Below, one piece after another: positions 32,509-63,104 of a stretch of 64,000 bases of DNA. The notes beneath the pieces are model-generated. The model was not told where the DNA came from. It did not search any database and saw nothing but the letters and a program-made list of their open reading frames with translations. A program made the position numbers and the translations under genes. The DNA comes from an uncultured Paracoccaceae bacterium (GTDB lineage: Bacteria; Pseudomonadota; Alphaproteobacteria; Rhodobacterales; Rhodobacteraceae): positions 1 to 64,000 of the forward strand of contig CANKVU010000013.1 of assembly GCA_947487205.1 (NCBI GenBank), given 5' to 3'. The number at the start of each line of letters is the position of its first letter. Position 1 is the first letter of the stretch.

Positions 32509-34656
32509 ATGCGTGACGACTGGCCGGCGACCCGCGACATCGTCCTGATCGGCGGCGGACACACCCATGCGCTGGTGCTGCGCCGCTGGGGTATGGACCC
32601 GCTGCCGGGCGCCCGTCTGACGCTGGTCAATCCCGGCCCCACCGCTCCCTATACCGGCATGCTGCCGGGCTTCGTCGCGGGCCATTACGACCGCGACGAA
32701 CTCGACATCGACCTCGTGCGCCTCGCCCGCTTCGCCGGGGCGCGGATCGTCCTCGGCCATGCGACCGCCATCGACAGGGCGGCGGGCACCATCGCGGTGG
32801 AGGATCGCTTCCTTGGTCCCCGCACCATCGGCTACGACACCGCCTCCCTCGATATCGGCATCCATTCCGATATGCCGCATCTGCCCGGCTTCGCCGATCA
32901 CGGCCTGCCCGCAAAACCGCTGGACCGGTTCGCGACCGCCTGGGCGGCGTGGCGCAAAGGCGACCGCCAGGGCGGCATGGCGGTGATCGGGGGCGGCGTC
33001 GGCGGGGCCGAACTCGCCATGGCAATGAGCTTCGGGGCCGGCGGCGCGCCCGTGACCCTGATCGAGAGGGACCGCGCGCTGTCCGGCCTGCCGCCCCGCG
33101 CCCGCGCCCATCTCGGCCGCGAACTGGCGCGCAACCGCGTCACCGTGGTCGACGGGGCGAACGTCCGCCGCGTCACCGCCCGCGGCGTCGATCTCGACGA
33201 TGGGCGCCACATCGACGCCGATCTCGTCGTGGGGGCGTCCGGCGCGCGGCCCTATGGCTGGCTGGACGGCATCGGCCTTGCCCTGACGGACGGCTATGTC
33301 GACGTGGGGCCCAGCCTGCAGACCTCCGATCCGGCGATCTTCGCGGTGGGCGATTGCGCGCATCTGACCCATGCTCCGCGCCCGAAGGCCGGCGTCTTCG
33401 CCGTCCGCCAGGCGCCGGTGCTCTTCGCCAATCTGCGCGCCGCCGCGACCGGCCGCCCGATGCGCGCCTACCGGCCCCAGCGCGACTATCTCAAGCTGAT
33501 CTCCACCGGCCGCAAATCGGCCGTCGCGGTGCGGTCCGGCCGCGCGGCCCGGGGTGTGCCGCTCTGGCACCTGAAGGACCGGATCGACCGGCGGTTCATG
33601 TCCCGGCTGGGCGATCTGGCGCCGATGGCGCGCCCCGCGCTGCCGCGCGAACACGCCCGCGGTCTGGAGCGTCACGTGGCCCAGGCCCCCTGCGGCGGCT
33701 GCGGCGCCAAGGTCGGCCGCGGCACCCTGGCGCGCGCCCTCGCCGCATTGCCGCAGGTCGGACGCGCGGACGTGGAGGCCGGGGCGGGCGACGATGCCGC
33801 GATCCTGGCCGTGGGCGGCGTGCGCCAGGTGCTGACCGTCGACCAGATCCGCGCCTTCTGCGACGATCCCGGCCTGATGGCCCGCATCGCCGCGCTCCAT
33901 GCCCTGGGAGATTGCCTGGCGATGGGCGCGCGGCCGCAGGCGGCGCTGTCGGTGCTGACCCTGCCCCGCCTCTCCCCCCGGCTCGAGGGCCGCACCCTCG
34001 AGGAGATCCTGGCGGCTGCCGGCGCTGTGTTCGAGGCCGCCGGCGCTCCCATCGTCGGCGGCCATTCGGCCACCGGCCCCGAATTGCAGGCGGGCTTCAC
34101 CGTGGCGGGGCTCCTCGACGGCCCCGGCGCGCGGCTGTCGGGGGCCAGGCCGGGCGACGCGCTCCTCCTGACCAAGCCGCTGGGCACGGGCGTCATTCTC
34201 GCCGCCGAGATGGCGTTGGCCGCCCGGGGGTCCGAGGCCGTCGCCGCCTGGGCGGCGATGGCCACCCCGCAGGATGCCGCCGCCGCGGCGCTGGCGGGCG
34301 CCCGCGCGATGACCGACGTGACCGGCTTCGGCCTGGCCGGCCACCTTCTGGGGATCTGCGAGGCAAGCGGGACCGGCGCGCGGATCGCGCTCGGCGCGCT
34401 GCCGATCCTTCCCGGCGCCGCCCGGCTCCTGGAACGAGGCCACCGTTCCACCCTCCATGCCCAGAACCGCGACGCGGCCACCGCCATGGACCTGGCAGCC
34501 GACCCCCTGGCCGAGATCCTGTTCGACCCGCAGACCGCCGGCGGACTGCTCGCGGCCGTTCCCCCGCAGGATGCCGAGGCCCTCCTGTCGCGCCTGCCCG
34601 GTACCGCGCGGATCGGCGAGGTGGTCCCCGGGCCCGCCCGGATTCGCGTCGTCTAG
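32509..34656 (+). CDS. selD: Pyridine-disulfide-type flavoprotein fused to selenide, water dikinase
   Basis: A 715-residue fusion. Residues 1-370 are an FAD/NAD(P)H oxidoreductase: VLIGGGHTHALVL, AVIGGGVGGAELAM and FAVGDCAHLT. Residues about 385-715 are SelD, which makes selenophosphate from selenide and ATP. The active-site Cys lies in CGGCGAKVG, DDAAIL binds Mg-ATP, and GGHSATGPE plus MTDVTGFGLAGHL follow. The flavoprotein may supply reduced selenium. Its TAG stop shares four bases (CTAG, 34653-34656) with convergent selU. Together they give selenium tRNA modification; selA/selB are not here. Confidence 0.93.
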   Translation: MRDDWPATRDIVLIGGGHTHALVLRRWGMDPLPGARLTLVNPGPTAPYTGMLPGFVAGHYDRDELDIDLVRLARFAGARIVLGHATAIDRAAGTIAVEDRFLGPRTIGYDTASLDIGIHSDMPHLPGFADHGLPAKPLDRFATAWAAWRKGDRQGGMAVIGGGVGGAELAMAMSFGAGGAPVTLIERDRALSGLPPRARAHLGRELARNRVTVVDGANVRRVTARGVDLDDGRHIDADLVVGASGARPYGWLDGIGLALTDGYVDVGPSLQTSDPAIFAVGDCAHLTHAPRPKAGVFAVRQAPVLFANLRAAATGRPMRAYRPQRDYLKLISTGRKSAVAVRSGRAARGVPLWHLKDRIDRRFMSRLGDLAPMARPALPREHARGLERHVAQAPCGGCGAKVGRGTLARALAALPQVGRADVEAGAGDDAAILAVGGVRQVLTVDQIRAFCDDPGLMARIAALHALGDCLAMGARPQAALSVLTLPRLSPRLEGRTLEEILAAAGAVFEAAGAPIVGGHSATGPELQAGFTVAGLLDGPGARLSGARPGDALLLTKPLGTGVILAAEMALAARGSEAVAAWAAMATPQDAAAAALAGARAMTDVTGFGLAGHLLGICEASGTGARIALGALPILPGAARLLERGHRSTLHAQNRDAATAMDLAADPLAEILFDPQTAGGLLAAVPPQDAEALLSRLPGTARIGEVVPGPARIRVV

Positions 34657-35696
34657 CCCAGGATCCGCGCCACCCGCGCCCCGATTGCGGCGATCTCCTC
34701 CGGGTCGAGCCGCGCGGCCTCGATCGAGGCCAGCGTCTCCCCGGCATCCCGCGCCCGCTGGCGCGCATAGCGGGGGTCGTAATGGTGCGCCATCAGCTCG
34801 GCGGCCAGGTCGGCGCGCGCGCCCGCGGCGGCCATGGCGCGCCACCGCGCCACCCGCTCATGCCCCTGCAGGCGCACCATCGCGGCGAGGGTCCGGTCCA
34901 GCCGGTCCGGATCCACGTCGAACCCGTCATAGGTCCGGGCCAGATAGGCCGCCCGCACCGCCAACGGCGCCCGGATCGCGATCCGCGACGCCGCCCGCAT
35001 CGCCGCCCAAAGGCCCGGCGGCACCACGCGCTCCCCGACCTTGGACGATTCCGCCTCCACCAGGACGGGGCGGGACGGATCGAGGCTCCGGACCGCCTCG
35101 GCCAGCGCGCTCTCGAACCCCTTCTGCGCGGGCTGGGGGCCCATCCCCCCGAACAGCGACCCGCGATGGTTCGCAAGCCCCTCCAGGTCGATCACCTGCG
35201 CGCCCCGCGCCCGCGCCGCCTTCAGGATGTCGGTCTTGGCCGTGCCGGTGAACCCGTCGAGCAGCACCACCCGCGCCGGGAAGTCCCGGTCATAGAGCGC
35301 CCCCTTCACCAACCTGCGATAGCTGCGGTAGCCGCCCTCCATCACGGCCACCCGCCAGCCGATCTGCCCCAGGATCGCGGCGAAGGAATTGGACCGCTGG
35401 CCGCCGCGCCAGCAATAGACGAGCGGCCGCCACCCGCCGTCATGGCCGGCCAGCACCCCCTCGATATGCGCGGCGGCGTTGCGGGCCACCAGCGCCGCGC
35501 CGATCTTGCGGGCCCGGAAGGCGCTTTCCCGGACATAGATCGTGCCGACCCGCGCCCGCTCGGCGTCGTCGAGCACCGGCAGGTTGATCGCGCCCGGCAC
35601 GCGATCCTCGGCGAATTCGGACGGCGACCGCACGTCGATCACCGTGTCGAAGGGGGCGCCGTGCAGCGCGTCGAGGCTTTCGGGGCAGAAGGTCAT
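34653..35696 (-). CDS. selU: tRNA 2-selenouridine synthase
   Basis: SelU (MnmH) uses selenophosphate to replace sulfur with selenium at the wobble uridine of some tRNAs. The 347-residue protein has an N-terminal rhodanese domain with VIDVRSPSEFAEDRVPGAIN and active Cys in VYCWRGGQRS. The P-loop domain has GFTGTAKTDIL and later VLVEAESSKVG. It converges on selD, its selenophosphate supplier, with stop codons interlocked in one CTAG. Start ATG 35696. Confidence 0.94.
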   Translation of the reverse strand: MTFCPESLDALHGAPFDTVIDVRSPSEFAEDRVPGAINLPVLDDAERARVGTIYVRESAFRARKIGAALVARNAAAHIEGVLAGHDGGWRPLVYCWRGGQRSNSFAAILGQIGWRVAVMEGGYRSYRRLVKGALYDRDFPARVVLLDGFTGTAKTDILKAARARGAQVIDLEGLANHRGSLFGGMGPQPAQKGFESALAEAVRSLDPSRPVLVEAESSKVGERVVPPGLWAAMRAASRIAIRAPLAVRAAYLARTYDGFDVDPDRLDRTLAAMVRLQGHERVARWRAMAAAGARADLAAELMAHHYDPRYARQRARDAGETLASIEAARLDPEEIAAIGARVARILG

Positions 35697-35706
35697 GGCC
35701 CGCGAC

Positions 35707-36564
35707 CTACGCCACCGCTGCGGTCTTGCCCAGAGCCGCCCGCGCCAGCGCCTGCCCGCTCGACCAGGCATGCCCCGCCAGCGGCCCCAGCGTCCAGTCC
35801 CCGCCCAGCCATGCCGTCTCCGCGACCTGCAGCACCGGGTGCCCCAGGGCCTGCCCTGTCCGGGCGAAGCGCCAGCGATGCGCCGTGGCATAGACCGGGC
35901 AGAGGCCCCCCACCGCCGCGCGCAGCCGCGCGACCAGAAACCCGCGCACCTCGGGCTCCTCCCGCTCCAGATGGGCCTCGCTCCAATCCGGCCCGGCATG
36001 GGCCACGACGCGGTGCGGCGCGGAATGGGCGAGGGTCTCGAAGGGCTGCGGGATCTCCTCCGGGCGGATCGCCTCCTCGAAGGCGGCCAATAAGCTCCAG
36101 CGCGGCGTCATCGTCACGCCAGACAGGTCCGCGTCCGGAAACAGTGCCGCCGCCTGCGGCGCGGGGATGGCGCAGAGCAGCACGGCGAAGGGTCCGTGCA
36201 CCTCGCCCTCCGCGTCGCGGAGGTGCCAGCCGCCCCGCTCCCGGGCCGCGACGATCCGCGCGCGCCGCCGGATCTCCACCCCCCGTTCCAGTGGCTTGAC
36301 GAGCGCGCTCATTCCCGGCGCGCCGCACCATCCGTCACCCCTCGCCCCGGCGCCCAGGGCCGCCATCGCCGCGCCGAAATGTGCGTCGCCGTGGGCTGCC
36401 GGCGCCCCGTGGTCGAAGGCTCCGGCGTCGGTGCGTCGGGTGGCCAGCCGCCCGCCGGTCCCCCGGCTCTTGTCGAGCACGCAGACCGTGCGCCCCGCCG
36501 CCGTCAGGGCCGCCGCCGCCGTCAGCCCGGCCAGTCCCGCCCCGATGATCGCGATCTCTGCCAT
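35707..36564 (-). CDS. Renalase-like FAD-dependent oxidoreductase
   Basis: This 285-residue flavoprotein begins with the dinucleotide fold IAIIGAGLAGLTAAAAL and the glycine-arginine segment SRGTGGRLATRR. It ends with WLGGDWTLGPLAGHAWSSGQALA. The pattern fits bacterial renalases and related NAD(P)-binding amine-oxidase-like proteins. Renalases oxidise isomeric dihydro-NAD(P). ATG 36564 is chosen, with the nucleotide fold starting at residue 3. It lies 10 bp upstream of selU on the same strand and may be co-transcribed. Substrate is inferred only. Confidence 0.82.
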   Translation of the reverse strand: MAEIAIIGAGLAGLTAAAALTAAGRTVCVLDKSRGTGGRLATRRTDAGAFDHGAPAAHGDAHFGAAMAALGAGARGDGWCGAPGMSALVKPLERGVEIRRRARIVAARERGGWHLRDAEGEVHGPFAVLLCAIPAPQAAALFPDADLSGVTMTPRWSLLAAFEEAIRPEEIPQPFETLAHSAPHRVVAHAGPDWSEAHLEREEPEVRGFLVARLRAAVGGLCPVYATAHRWRFARTGQALGHPVLQVAETAWLGGDWTLGPLAGHAWSSGQALARAALGKTAAVA

Positions 36565-37492: not shown

Positions 37493-38536
37493 CTAGTCGC
37501 GGCGCGCCTGCCCGAGCGCCAGCGGCTCGCCGGGTGGGCCGCGATCCCGCCGATGGCCGGGGTCGTGGAACATGTGACGCGACCGCCCCGCCCCCTTCGA
37601 GGCATAGAGCGCCGCGTCGGCGTCGGCGATGATCCGGTTGGCGTCCGGCGGATCGTAATCCGTGGACAGGCTGATGCCGATGCTGGCCGAGATCCGGCAG
37701 GTCCGCTCGCCGAACGGCACCGGCCGCCCCAGTTCGCCCACGATCCGCGCGGCGATCTCCTCCAGCCGGTCCACCTCCAGCATGCCCGGCAAGAGCAGCA
37801 TGAACTCGTCGCCGCCCACCCGCGCGACGGTGTCGCTGGCGCGCACCACCGCGCTCAGCCGCTCGGCCACCTCGCGCAGGACGGCGTCCCCGGCGGCATG
37901 GCCCAGGCTGTCGTTGACCGACTTGAAGTAATCCAGATCCACATGGCAGAGCGCGAAGCTCTGCCCGTCGGCGATCGTCGCCGACAGGATCAGGTCCAGC
38001 GCCCGGCGGTTTCCCAACCCGGTCAGCGCGTCGGTCAGCGCGGCCTCCTCGGCGCGGGTCTTCGCCTCCTGCAGGCGCCGGATCAGCCGGCGGGACTCGG
38101 CGAAGGCCAGTTCCTTCGCCTCCATGAGGTAGAGCATGTCGAGCGTCGGGTCGGTCGGCGCGAAATCCGCCGCCGTCAGGTCCGCGCCGCCCAGATCGGG
38201 CAGGTCCGACACCCCCAGGGCGAGGTTCAGCAGACCCGCGCCCCCACCGATCCGCACCAGGTGTCCGCGGAGCGTGACGGTCCGCAAGGTGAGGGGCACG
38301 GCGATGGTCAGCGCCCGCCCGGCCCGGTTGAAGAGCGCCTGCGCAGTCTCCACCCCCTCGGGCCGCAACACCCGGAACCCGTCGAAGAAATCCTGCCCGA
38401 CCGCCGCGCGCGGTCCCGTGATCCGCCGCAGCGCCCGCCCCGCCCCGACGATGCGGGCGTGGGAATCGACGGCCACGTGCATCGGCATCAACGCGTCGAG
38501 CTCCGCGGCGCGGAGCTTCAATCCCGCCTCCATCAT
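37493..38536 (-). CDS. HNOBA-GGDEF diguanylate cyclase
   Basis: A 347-residue cyclase that should make c-di-GMP. The N-terminus (about 1-135) resembles the H-NOX-associated HNOBA/PAS-like domain: FDGFRVLRPE, VTLRGHLVRIG and MLYLMEAKELAFAESRR. A signalling coiled coil (about 135-168) leads to the GGDEF domain with LTGLGNRRAL and intact GGDEF at 241-245. The inhibitory RxxD site is RASD at 232-235. Its ATG overlaps the H-NOX gene's TGA (ATGA), so the two work as a sensor/cyclase pair. Confidence 0.92.
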   Translation of the reverse strand: MMEAGLKLRAAELDALMPMHVAVDSHARIVGAGRALRRITGPRAAVGQDFFDGFRVLRPEGVETAQALFNRAGRALTIAVPLTLRTVTLRGHLVRIGGGAGLLNLALGVSDLPDLGGADLTAADFAPTDPTLDMLYLMEAKELAFAESRRLIRRLQEAKTRAEEAALTDALTGLGNRRALDLILSATIADGQSFALCHVDLDYFKSVNDSLGHAAGDAVLREVAERLSAVVRASDTVARVGGDEFMLLLPGMLEVDRLEEIAARIVGELGRPVPFGERTCRISASIGISLSTDYDPPDANRIIADADAALYASKGAGRSRHMFHDPGHRRDRGPPGEPLALGQARRD

Positions 38537-39150
38537 CGCGTCCCACCGCCGAGATGGAAGTCGCGGCCCTCGAAATAGCGCGCAGAAGGCACCGAAACCG
38601 ACAGCCTGACCGCCTCGGCGAGCGGCGCCGGGTCCCGCGCCCCGCCCTCCTCGTCGTCCTCGACCTCGATGATCGCGAGGGCGCCGTATTCGTCGGCCAT
38701 GGCGCGGATCAGGCCGACGAGCACATGCGCGACCCCCGGCGGCGAGCCGCTGCACGTCACGGAATAAAGGTCCGGCGCCAGCGTCCGCGCGCGCAGGCGC
38801 GGCAGCACCATCCCCGGCATGGCCAGGCGGATCCGGTCCGGCAGATCGTCGAGCGATTCGAGGAAGGCGGTGAAATCCGCCCCGCCATAGCGCAGTAAGC
38901 GCCGGATGGGGACGTTCCGCTCGTCGGCGACCAGCCAGGTGCCCAGATCCTCGAGGAAGTCGGCCTGCGGGCGGCCGAACACGGTCGCCGCGGCGGCGAC
39001 GATGCGGGGGGCGTAATCCTCGGGATAGCACAGCATCACCTCGAAGGCGCTGACCGACAGCCGCGCCTCGCCGATCACCCGTCGCCAGAGCGCCTCGCCA
39101 TACGTGTCGGTGACGAACCGCTGCATCGCCCGTGCCGCTAGACCGTTCAT
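38533..39150 (-). CDS. H-NOX-family protein lacking heme-pocket hallmarks
   Basis: A 205-residue H-NOX protein; this family normally binds heme and senses NO or O2. It begins NGLAARAMQRFVTDTYG and has RRLLRYGG, FLESLDDL and VLVGLIRAMADEYG. The family pattern is His-x12-Pro-x14-16-Tyr-x-Ser-x-Arg. Here the spacing is exact, but the His is Pro104 and Tyr/Ser/Arg are Cys133, Gly135 and Pro137. Heme binding is therefore doubtful. It is coupled to an HNOBA-GGDEF cyclase. It may sense another ligand or act as a structural partner. Confidence 0.88.
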   Translation of the reverse strand: MNGLAARAMQRFVTDTYGEALWRRVIGEARLSVSAFEVMLCYPEDYAPRIVAAAATVFGRPQADFLEDLGTWLVADERNVPIRRLLRYGGADFTAFLESLDDLPDRIRLAMPGMVLPRLRARTLAPDLYSVTCSGSPPGVAHVLVGLIRAMADEYGALAIIEVEDDEEGGARDPAPLAEAVRLSVSVPSARYFEGRDFHLGGGTR

Positions 39151-39227: not shown

Positions 39228-39506
39228 TCAGGTCCAATGCACCTCGTCGCCGCCCGGCAACGCGCGCCGCGCCGCACCGACCGCGGCATAGGGGTGGCCG
39301 GCCGCATCGCAGAACGCGACCACCCAGGCGTCGTCCATCATCACGAAATCGAGCACCGAGCCCAGGAACTCGGGGTCCCGGGCCCCGGCCCGGACCGATT
39401 CCGCGTTGCTTCCCGTCGCGTTGAGGAATACCGGCATCAGTTCCTCCTGTCCGCTCAGCCACACCAAGGCCTCCTGCGCCAGCCCGGTCGCCGTCTCGCG
39501 CCGCAT
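39228..39506 (-). CDS. DUF3572 family protein
   Basis: This 92-residue protein matches DUF3572, common in alphaproteobacteria. It has ETATGLAQEALVWLSGQEELMPVFLNATG, quoted here in parts (LAQEALVWLSG, LMPVFLNATG), and then DPEFLGSVLDFVMMDD and AVVAFCDAAG-like VAFCDAAGHPYAAV. No enzyme motif or membrane segment is visible, so it is probably a small cytosolic helical protein. It is divergent from the PleD-like cyclase, and this linkage is often kept in Rhodobacteraceae. Function unknown. Confidence 0.87.
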   Translation of the reverse strand: MRRETATGLAQEALVWLSGQEELMPVFLNATGSNAESVRAGARDPEFLGSVLDFVMMDDAWVVAFCDAAGHPYAAVGAARRALPGGDEVHWT

Positions 39507-39614
39507 CGCCGATCTCCATCACGGGAAATACTTTCTTAACAAAATCGTTTCAGATTTAATCGCATTGGATAAGGGGTGATCGGCCCGTCCGGGACCCTTT
39601 TCGACGGAGACAGC

Positions 39615-41021
39615 ATGACACGGCGCGTCCTGATAGCGGATCAAACTGCGACCGACCGCATCGCGCTCAAGGCGATACTGGCCGCGGCCCGGTACCAGGT
39701 CGTGGCCGTGCCGAGCGCCGCCGAGGCCCGGCACGAGGTGCGCGCCGGCAACGCCGACATCGTGATCGTGGATGCCGGGCTGGCGGATTTCGCGACGTCC
39801 GGCCTGGCCGCCGACATGGCCGCGGGCGGCGCCGCGACGCCGCCGTTCATCGTCATCACCGGGCGCGATTCCTCCGCCCTGAGGACGGGCTGGTTCGACG
39901 CCGGGGCCGCCGCCGTGCTGACGCGTCCGCTCGACAAGGCGTGGATCCTGTCGAACATCCGCGCGCTGCTGCGCGCCTACGGCGCCCGGGCCGAGATCGC
40001 CCGCCAGGTCGGCACCGCCCGGCGGCTGGGCTTCGCCGAGGCGGCGGGAGAGTTCCGGCGCCCGCGCCGCGTGGCGCTGGTCGGGGCCTCTCGGGCCTCG
40101 GTGGGCCGGATCATGCAGGGTCTGTCGAACCATCTCGATTGCCGGATCGAGGCGCGCACCCCGACCGAGGTGCTCGATCCGGCGCTGACCGGCCCGCCGG
40201 CCGATCTCCACGTCATCGCCGCCGACGAGGATCCCGACGAGGCGCTGTGGCTCCTGGCCGAACTCCGGACCCACCATGCCTCGCGCCGGGCCGCGATCCT
40301 GATGGAATTCGACGAGGCCGACCGGGCGGCGGGCATCCGCGCGCTCGACCAGGGCGCGAACGCGCTCCTGCGGCGCGACGCCTCGCCCGCCGAGCGCGCG
40401 CTCATCATCGCGCGCGAACTCGACGCCAAGGTCGAGGCCGACGAGATGCGGACCCAGCTCGACCGGTCCCTGGCAATGGCCGCGCAGGACCATCTGACGG
40501 GGCTCTTCAACCGCCGCTACGCCATGCAGCACCTGGCCGATCTCAGCACGCTCCGCCGGGGCGAGGGGCGCGGCTACGGCGTGGTGCTGATCGACGTGGA
40601 TCATTTCAAGGCCGTCAACGACCGCCTGGGCCATGCCGCGGGCGACGCGGCCCTGCGCGTCGTCGCCAGCCGGCTCCAGTCGAACCTGCGCGACCACGAC
40701 ATGGTGGCGCGCTTCGGGGGCGAGGAATTTCTCGTCGCGCTGACCGATACCTGCCCAGAGGAGGCGCTGCAGGCCGCCGAACGGCTGCGGATCGCCCTTT
40801 CTGCCGATCCGGTCGAGGCCGGCGGCGAACGCCTGGCGATCACCGTCAGCGCCGGCATCGCCTGCAGCGCGACGCTGACACCCGAACAGACGATCGCGGC
40901 CGCCGACGCGGCGCTCTACCGGGCGAAGTCGAACGGCCGCAACCGCTGCGAGCCGACGCGCCCCGAGGATTTCGGCAAGCCGGTCTTCGGCGCGCCGGGA
41001 TCGCGCAAGATCGCCGGCTGA
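39615..41021 (+). CDS. PleD-like response regulator diguanylate cyclase
   Basis: A 468-residue REC-REC-GGDEF protein like Caulobacter PleD, which makes c-di-GMP when phosphorylated. REC1 (about 1-120) has VLIADQTATDR and phospho-Asp in IVIVDAGLAD, but the usual LTKP is LTRPLD (Lys to Arg). REC2 (about 140-270) lacks a full acidic site. The GGDEF domain has LTGLFNRRYAM and GGEEF with RDHD inhibitory site. ATG 39615 is preferred over the GTG 13 codons upstream. It is divergent from DUF3572. Confidence 0.92.
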   Translation: MTRRVLIADQTATDRIALKAILAAARYQVVAVPSAAEARHEVRAGNADIVIVDAGLADFATSGLAADMAAGGAATPPFIVITGRDSSALRTGWFDAGAAAVLTRPLDKAWILSNIRALLRAYGARAEIARQVGTARRLGFAEAAGEFRRPRRVALVGASRASVGRIMQGLSNHLDCRIEARTPTEVLDPALTGPPADLHVIAADEDPDEALWLLAELRTHHASRRAAILMEFDEADRAAGIRALDQGANALLRRDASPAERALIIARELDAKVEADEMRTQLDRSLAMAAQDHLTGLFNRRYAMQHLADLSTLRRGEGRGYGVVLIDVDHFKAVNDRLGHAAGDAALRVVASRLQSNLRDHDMVARFGGEEFLVALTDTCPEEALQAAERLRIALSADPVEAGGERLAITVSAGIACSATLTPEQTIAAADAALYRAKSNGRNRCEPTRPEDFGKPVFGAPGSRKIAG

Positions 41022-62961: not shown

Positions 62962-63104
62962 GGCGGCTCGCTCGGCTCGGGACGGGGTTGCGCCGGTCTA
63001 GCCCCCGGCCGCTTAAGGCCGTCTTAACTCGCGGCCTGAGGGCCGTTTCTGGACAAGCCATGCGCCCTGTGGTTCAGAACCGCGTGTCCCGAGGAGGCCC
63101 CGAG

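Follow-up and report, generated by a model that had tools for sequence, protein, structure and literature searches.

In H-NOX proteins that carry heme, the signalling helix is released when the Fe-His bond breaks, and the protein enters a state that inhibits its partner, as is known from work on NO-bound and His-mutant forms. In soluble guanylate cyclase the domain next after H-NOX is HNOBA, and the alpha subunit of this enzyme contains a heme-free H-NOX domain, which sets a precedent for a subunit with a structural role. As far as its accessible text goes, a 2022 review (PMC8738867) describes a "Group 5" of H-NOX proteins, under 10% of which have the proximal His; most have Pro in this place, no Cys is conserved, and the question of what such His-less proteins sense is left open.

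The available sections of a study by Kumar and Spiro from 2017 (PMC5588039) report that the H-NOX proteins of Paracoccus denitrificans and Rhodobacter sphaeroides lack the axial His, and that hnoX of P. denitrificans overlaps dgcA. According to the same sections, loss of hnoX leaves cells partly deficient in biofilm and without BapA, whereas the dgcAB mutant overproduces both. Since NO stimulates biofilm in the hnoX and dgc mutants as well, part of this effect runs elsewhere; the authors model the P. denitrificans H-NOX as NO-responsive. A 2025 study of the same hnoX mutant (PMC12582929, in the part available) confirms in its introduction that biofilm is defective; at OD 2.0 it finds no differential abundance of BapA, which conflicts with the 2017 result; the word "histidine" was not found in its main text as available to us. 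Finally, the H-NOX of Dinoroseobacter shibae is given in print as a heme-based NO sensor with an inhibitory effect on Dgc1 (PMC8846402), and Vibrio cholerae H-NOX is described with a heme-free, zinc redox mode that works through a Cys zinc site (PMC7108781), each in the accessible part of the source.

The H-NOX gene and its partner cyclase

We analyzed a stretch of 64,000 nucleotides (the window) from contig CANKVU010000013.1 of an uncultured Paracoccaceae bacterium (GCA_947487205.1). An intact frame on the minus strand (38533..39150) codes for a protein of 205 aa that matches the Pfam HNOB profile with 76.2 bits (E 3.6e-21), where the cut-off is 25.5. At E up to 0.001, the source genome has no other HNOB match. 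An AlphaFold model of this protein (pLDDT 88.7) gave Nostoc H-NOX as the top Foldseek match (TM by target 0.85). By sequence profile and predicted structure the protein is a member of the H-NOX/HNOB fold family, and the relatives described below place it in the His-less Group 5 clade.

The motif residues are spaced as position 104, twelve residues, Pro117, fifteen residues, and then positions 133, 135, and 137. The column of the heme-ligating His is occupied by Pro104 (codon CCG, 38839..38841, minus strand), which lies inside the predicted helix 93-110. Alignment with relatives assigns the columns of the propionate-binding Tyr, Ser, and Arg to Cys133, Gly135, and Pro137 (38740..38754, minus strand). 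Hence, the window protein has neither the proximal His nor the Tyr-x-Ser-x-Arg motif. The sole motif residue retained is Pro117 (38800..38802, minus strand), which is invariant in the clade and canonical sets that we compared. Since the spacing to Pro117 is kept and the His of the best solved relative by clade profile, Nostoc Alr2278 H-NOX (E 7e-27), aligns with the Pro column, we can eliminate the possibility that a misalignment conceals a His. The original prediction had described an intact H-NOX gene that keeps the fold and the exact motif spacing and carries these four substitutions. Profile, predicted structure, and alignment agree with this description, and the CCG codon is confirmed as well. 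In the whole protein we found two cysteines, C41 and C133, and no three-Cys zinc motif of the redox H-NOX kind. With two cysteines only, we can also exclude a zinc/Cys redox site of the V. cholerae type.

The stop codon of this gene overlaps the start of a second minus-strand gene by 4 nt (38533..38536). The latter (37493..38536, ATG at 38536) encodes a complete protein of 347 aa with a GGDEF domain (140.2 bits) and an RxxD I-site, here RASD, five residues ahead of GGDEF; these two motifs place it in the GGDEF diguanylate cyclase family. Its model (pLDDT 89.9) contains a mixed N-terminal domain, a long helix (130-166), and the GGDEF domain. The 50 Foldseek matches listed for this model are diguanylate cyclases and other c-di-GMP proteins, and soluble guanylate cyclase was not found among them. 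The claimed coupling to a complete cyclase with intact GGDEF and I-site therefore holds. The claimed HNOBA-GGDEF architecture holds in part: the GGDEF domain is clear and HNOBA scores above the cut-off (25.3 bits vs 23.4), but this match is weak and partial, covering only 56 of 216 profile positions.

A DUF3572 gene (39228-39506) lies between the H-NOX pair and a REC-GGDEF gene of the PleD kind (39576-41021, plus strand), which has the opposite orientation to the pair and scores below the PleD model's own cut-off. This synteny is loose across the clade, with DUF3572 at 48 and a PleD-like gene at 24 of 83 loci (flanks of about 4 kb). The motif TTAA-N7-TTAA, which we take to be CtrA-like, was found within 250 nt upstream of H-NOX at none of 160 clade loci. 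The window contains it once, at 63013-63027 (0 in 100 shuffles), near the start of a frame that we take to resemble glutamyl-tRNA synthetase. At 32509-35999, an oxidoreductase-SelD fusion gene faces the gene for the tRNA 2-selenouridine synthase MnmH with overlapping ends; these two genes are a selenium-use pair.

Distribution, gene pairing, and conservation in the clade

The window H-NOX found matches at E up to 0.001 in 288 of 394 Rhodobacteraceae genomes (393 genera), and the HNOB profile in 296 of the 394, part of these matches being canonical H-NOX proteins or fragments. In the genus of the source organism, 13 of 14 genomes contain a match, the source genome included, and one genus mate (G396) has none. 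Another genus mate (G405) carries both a divergent and a canonical His-Tyr-Ser-Arg H-NOX (L033 and L045). Of 385 genomes sampled evenly across the class and scored for up to 8 candidates each, 10 matched the clade profile. Four of them exceed 200 bits, and all four, among them the source genome, belong to the family of the source; the six matches at 50.6 to 106.1 bits comprise one from the same family and five from four other families. A contig search with the single window protein as query confirmed no relative. The same kind of search with an alignment as query gave 576 confirmed matches, and the best 80 of the 576 were used. In total we read 245 loci for residues, 31 of them canonical, defined by His-Tyr-Ser at the three columns, and 214 divergent; 190 of the divergent loci are distinct, with the window locus counted once. 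This sample is uneven and tilted to close relatives. Another 36 genomes, mostly low-scoring, were added deliberately; the ten weakest of 40 places in this added set, mostly fragments, were left out of the loci.

A same-strand GGDEF frame lies downstream of H-NOX in every distinct divergent locus for which 1100 nt or more of downstream sequence is available, 187 in total (the other 3 of 190 have less and fall outside this count). The first possible cyclase start produces the 4-nt overlap at 139 of these 187 loci and is no farther than 50 nt from the H-NOX stop at 179 or more, and the downstream frame has RxxD in 185. HNOBA at E up to 0.01 was detected in 55 of 60 clade partner cyclases scanned. 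Among the 31 canonical loci, a downstream GGDEF frame occurs at two, neither with RxxD at the tested place. By elimination, these two are L002 and L011.

At column 104, the 190 distinct clade sequences contain Pro (149), His (9), Ser (7), Ala (6), Gln (6), Arg (4), Asn (3), Val (2), Thr (2), Asp (1), and Gly (1). As we read these counts, His, Ser, Ala, Gln, Arg, and Thr can each be reached from a Pro codon by a single base change, with His about as common as the commonest other; Leu, likewise one base away, is absent from this column. The share of His (9/190, 4.7%) agrees with the figure for Group 5 in the accessible part of the review (PMC8738867). So do the replacement of His mostly by Pro, seen in the window protein as well, and the lack of a conserved Cys. 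Column 133 holds Cys in 128, Val in 26, Leu in 9, and Ile in 8 of the 190 sequences, and other residues including Ala, which is found in P. denitrificans. It is the only column with Cys in 60% or more of 102 clade loci, and with Cys in 128 of 190 members only, a role of Cys133 as a new heme or zinc ligand does not hold as a general rule for the clade. Column 137 is Arg in 7 of 190 sequences.

Ranked by entropy over 160 clade rows, columns 104, 133, 135, and 137 take places 71, 94, 142, and 157 of 165. Over the 31 canonical rows they take places 3, 5, 6, and 12 of 159, where the first three ranks follow from the selection of this set on His-Tyr-Ser and only that of the Arg column is independent. 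The heme columns of the clade are thus relaxed. Since few columns of the protein vary more within the clade than 135 and 137, Gly135 and Pro137 look like lost constraint and not like new function. Pro104 is not wholly free, because its column varies less than the median one (1.35 vs 1.60 bits). Near-invariant in the clade are W22, E67, D68, R83, R84, R87, G90, R106, P117, G146, R149, D153, Y155, G156, F198, and L200. The clade gene is under purifying selection, with a median dN/dS of 0.058 and a maximum of 0.158 in 24 usable of 33 pairs, which share sequences, are not independent, and were drawn from relatives of the window gene.

A quick tree with outgroup was built from 78 divergent and 21 canonical rows, and of its 96 inner branches 55 are weak. 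In this tree a branch with SH-aLRT 99 separates the divergent from the canonical rows, and the P. denitrificans locus (L215) falls inside the divergent clade. The review made the corresponding grouping by a network with E below 1e-47 (PMC8738867, accessible text). In a second tree of 160 divergent rows, from which four short pieces and near-copies at 80% identity or more had been removed, the 8 rows with His require 8 changes; His is therefore scattered over the clade. These counts make no distinction between gain and loss of His. In the outgroup tree, Asn is found in the divergent row that branches first and Pro in the unresolved rows that follow, which weakly favours an early loss of His with later returns. 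One further member is the single H-NOX match in genome G035 (L225/L246), which we take to be that of D. shibae: the tree places it in the divergent clade, and it has His at column 104 and Arg at column 137.

A special case with four tailored replacements is not supported. Alignment with related genomes, the check proposed along with the original prediction, shows instead that the substitutions are common to a clade, with Pro at the ligand column in 149 of 190 sequences. This clade is large and, in the text available to us, already in print as Group 5 (PMC8738867), and columns 135 and 137 are highly variable. The survey of family genomes and loci also eliminates an unusual single case. This class is puzzling, and the window H-NOX is a normal member of it.

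Possible roles of the His-less protein

Heme-independence is the likeliest reading of this sequence, since the protein has lost the His-ligand site but kept the fold, an intact gene, and the coupling to the cyclase, and since this loss is common to the clade. With no His to ligate heme iron and no residues to hold the propionates, the protein would not sense NO as a ligand on heme. We regard it as quite unlikely that the window H-NOX still senses NO as its relatives do, with heme held by hydrophobic contacts or by a different ligand. The retained fold and Pro117 would be compatible with this behavior, as would the listing of D. shibae H-NOX, placed in the same clade, as a heme NO sensor (PMC8846402, accessible part) and the NO role proposed for the His-less P. 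denitrificans protein (PMC5588039, available sections). However, none of the four columns holds the His, Tyr, Ser, or Arg, and Cys133, the sole candidate ligand among the four, is replaced mostly by Val, Leu, Ile, or Ala wherever a clade member lacks Cys. Furthermore, the sequence taken for D. shibae has the His that is missing here, so the published heme example in this clade seems to own the absent ligand. The loss of four hallmark residues could also mark a decaying remnant of a heme sensor. In line with decay, four of the 214 divergent loci (L115, L239, L240, L244) yielded no piece of 180 aa or more, and three matches contain single in-frame stops. Nevertheless, such decay is highly improbable: the window frame is intact, the gene persists in all but one of the 14 genomes of the source genus, and the selection estimate from the 24 pairs of relatives contradicts decay for the clade. 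Based on the intact frame and this estimate we can exclude a pseudogene.

If another small molecule filled the emptied pocket, it could act as a new signal. Columns 104, 133, and 137 draw their residues from the set V, I, L, M, F, C, A, W, Y, P, G, T in 136, 155, and 131 of 160 rows, which fits an apolar cavity, and the low dN/dS indicates that the gene is strongly retained. The variability of columns 135 and 137 speaks against a specific ligand there, though, and the pocket itself is putative, as is its lining by the near-invariant residues; we consider this signal rather unlikely. We also give little credence to a purely structural subunit that stabilizes or places the cyclase. The pairing at 187 of 187 loci and the frequent HNOBA matches among the partners would suit such a subunit, but the absence of soluble guanylate cyclase from the 50 matches listed for the cyclase model does not, and the opposite phenotypes of the hnoX and dgcAB mutants of P. 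denitrificans (PMC5588039, available sections) suggest inhibition rather than support.

We see about even chances that the window H-NOX is a heme-independent regulatory, probably inhibitory, subunit of the adjoining cyclase, perhaps one that rests in the "Fe-His bond broken" state. We infer that such a subunit contains no heme, forms a complex with the cyclase by binding its N-terminal domain or signalling helix, and inhibits the enzyme. Lacking the His, the H-NOX may rest in the state that heme proteins reach when their Fe-His bond is broken. A cue that acts on the invariant residues of the clade or on the cyclase would then relieve, or impose, inhibition; an interface role for the conserved polar residues is our guess. 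The inhibitory reading follows from the opposite mutant phenotypes in P. denitrificans together with the rule that a freed signalling helix inhibits the partner. Given the BapA conflict and the D. shibae case, the sign of regulation rests on one mutant study, and this conflict lowers our confidence in the subunit reading. A broader and distinctly more tentative proposal is that the family has largely turned H-NOX into a heme-free, permanently "His-off" cyclase inhibitor that may receive a new cue through the invariant Arg, Asp, and Tyr residues and the C-terminal tail, with the His-containing members, including D. shibae, as secondary returns.

Comparison with known H-NOX systems

Like the canonical heme proteins (Nostoc Alr2278 and soluble guanylate cyclase beta1), the window H-NOX has the fold, the motif spacing, and Pro117. 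It differs by lacking the His, Tyr, Ser, and Arg; Nostoc has His at the Pro104 column, and soluble guanylate cyclase beta1 has its proximal His at the same column. With the redox H-NOX of V. cholerae it would share a heme-independent mode of the H-NOX fold, but that protein works through its Cys zinc site and the window protein has two cysteines only. The H-NOX/Dgc1 pair of the genome assigned to D. shibae belongs to the same clade and has the same gene order as the window pair. That H-NOX retains both His and Arg137, which the window protein lacks, and D. shibae, if rightly placed, may be a poor model for this mostly His-less clade.

The H-NOX of P. denitrificans (Pden_3719, beside dgcA Pden_3720), on which Group 5 was built, resembles the window protein in having Pro where heme proteins have the proximal His, in lacking a Cys cluster, and in its overlap with a GGDEF gene. 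The record of P. denitrificans HAMBI_2443 contains this Pro and this gene overlap, and its H-NOX is 38% identical to the window protein over 81% of the length of the latter. The two differ at the remaining columns, where the window protein has C133/G135/P137 and P. denitrificans HAMBI_2443 has A/S/Q. To this described type the present analysis adds the pairing with a cyclase gene at every checkable locus, the relaxed heme columns, and a set of residues that are invariant across the clade.
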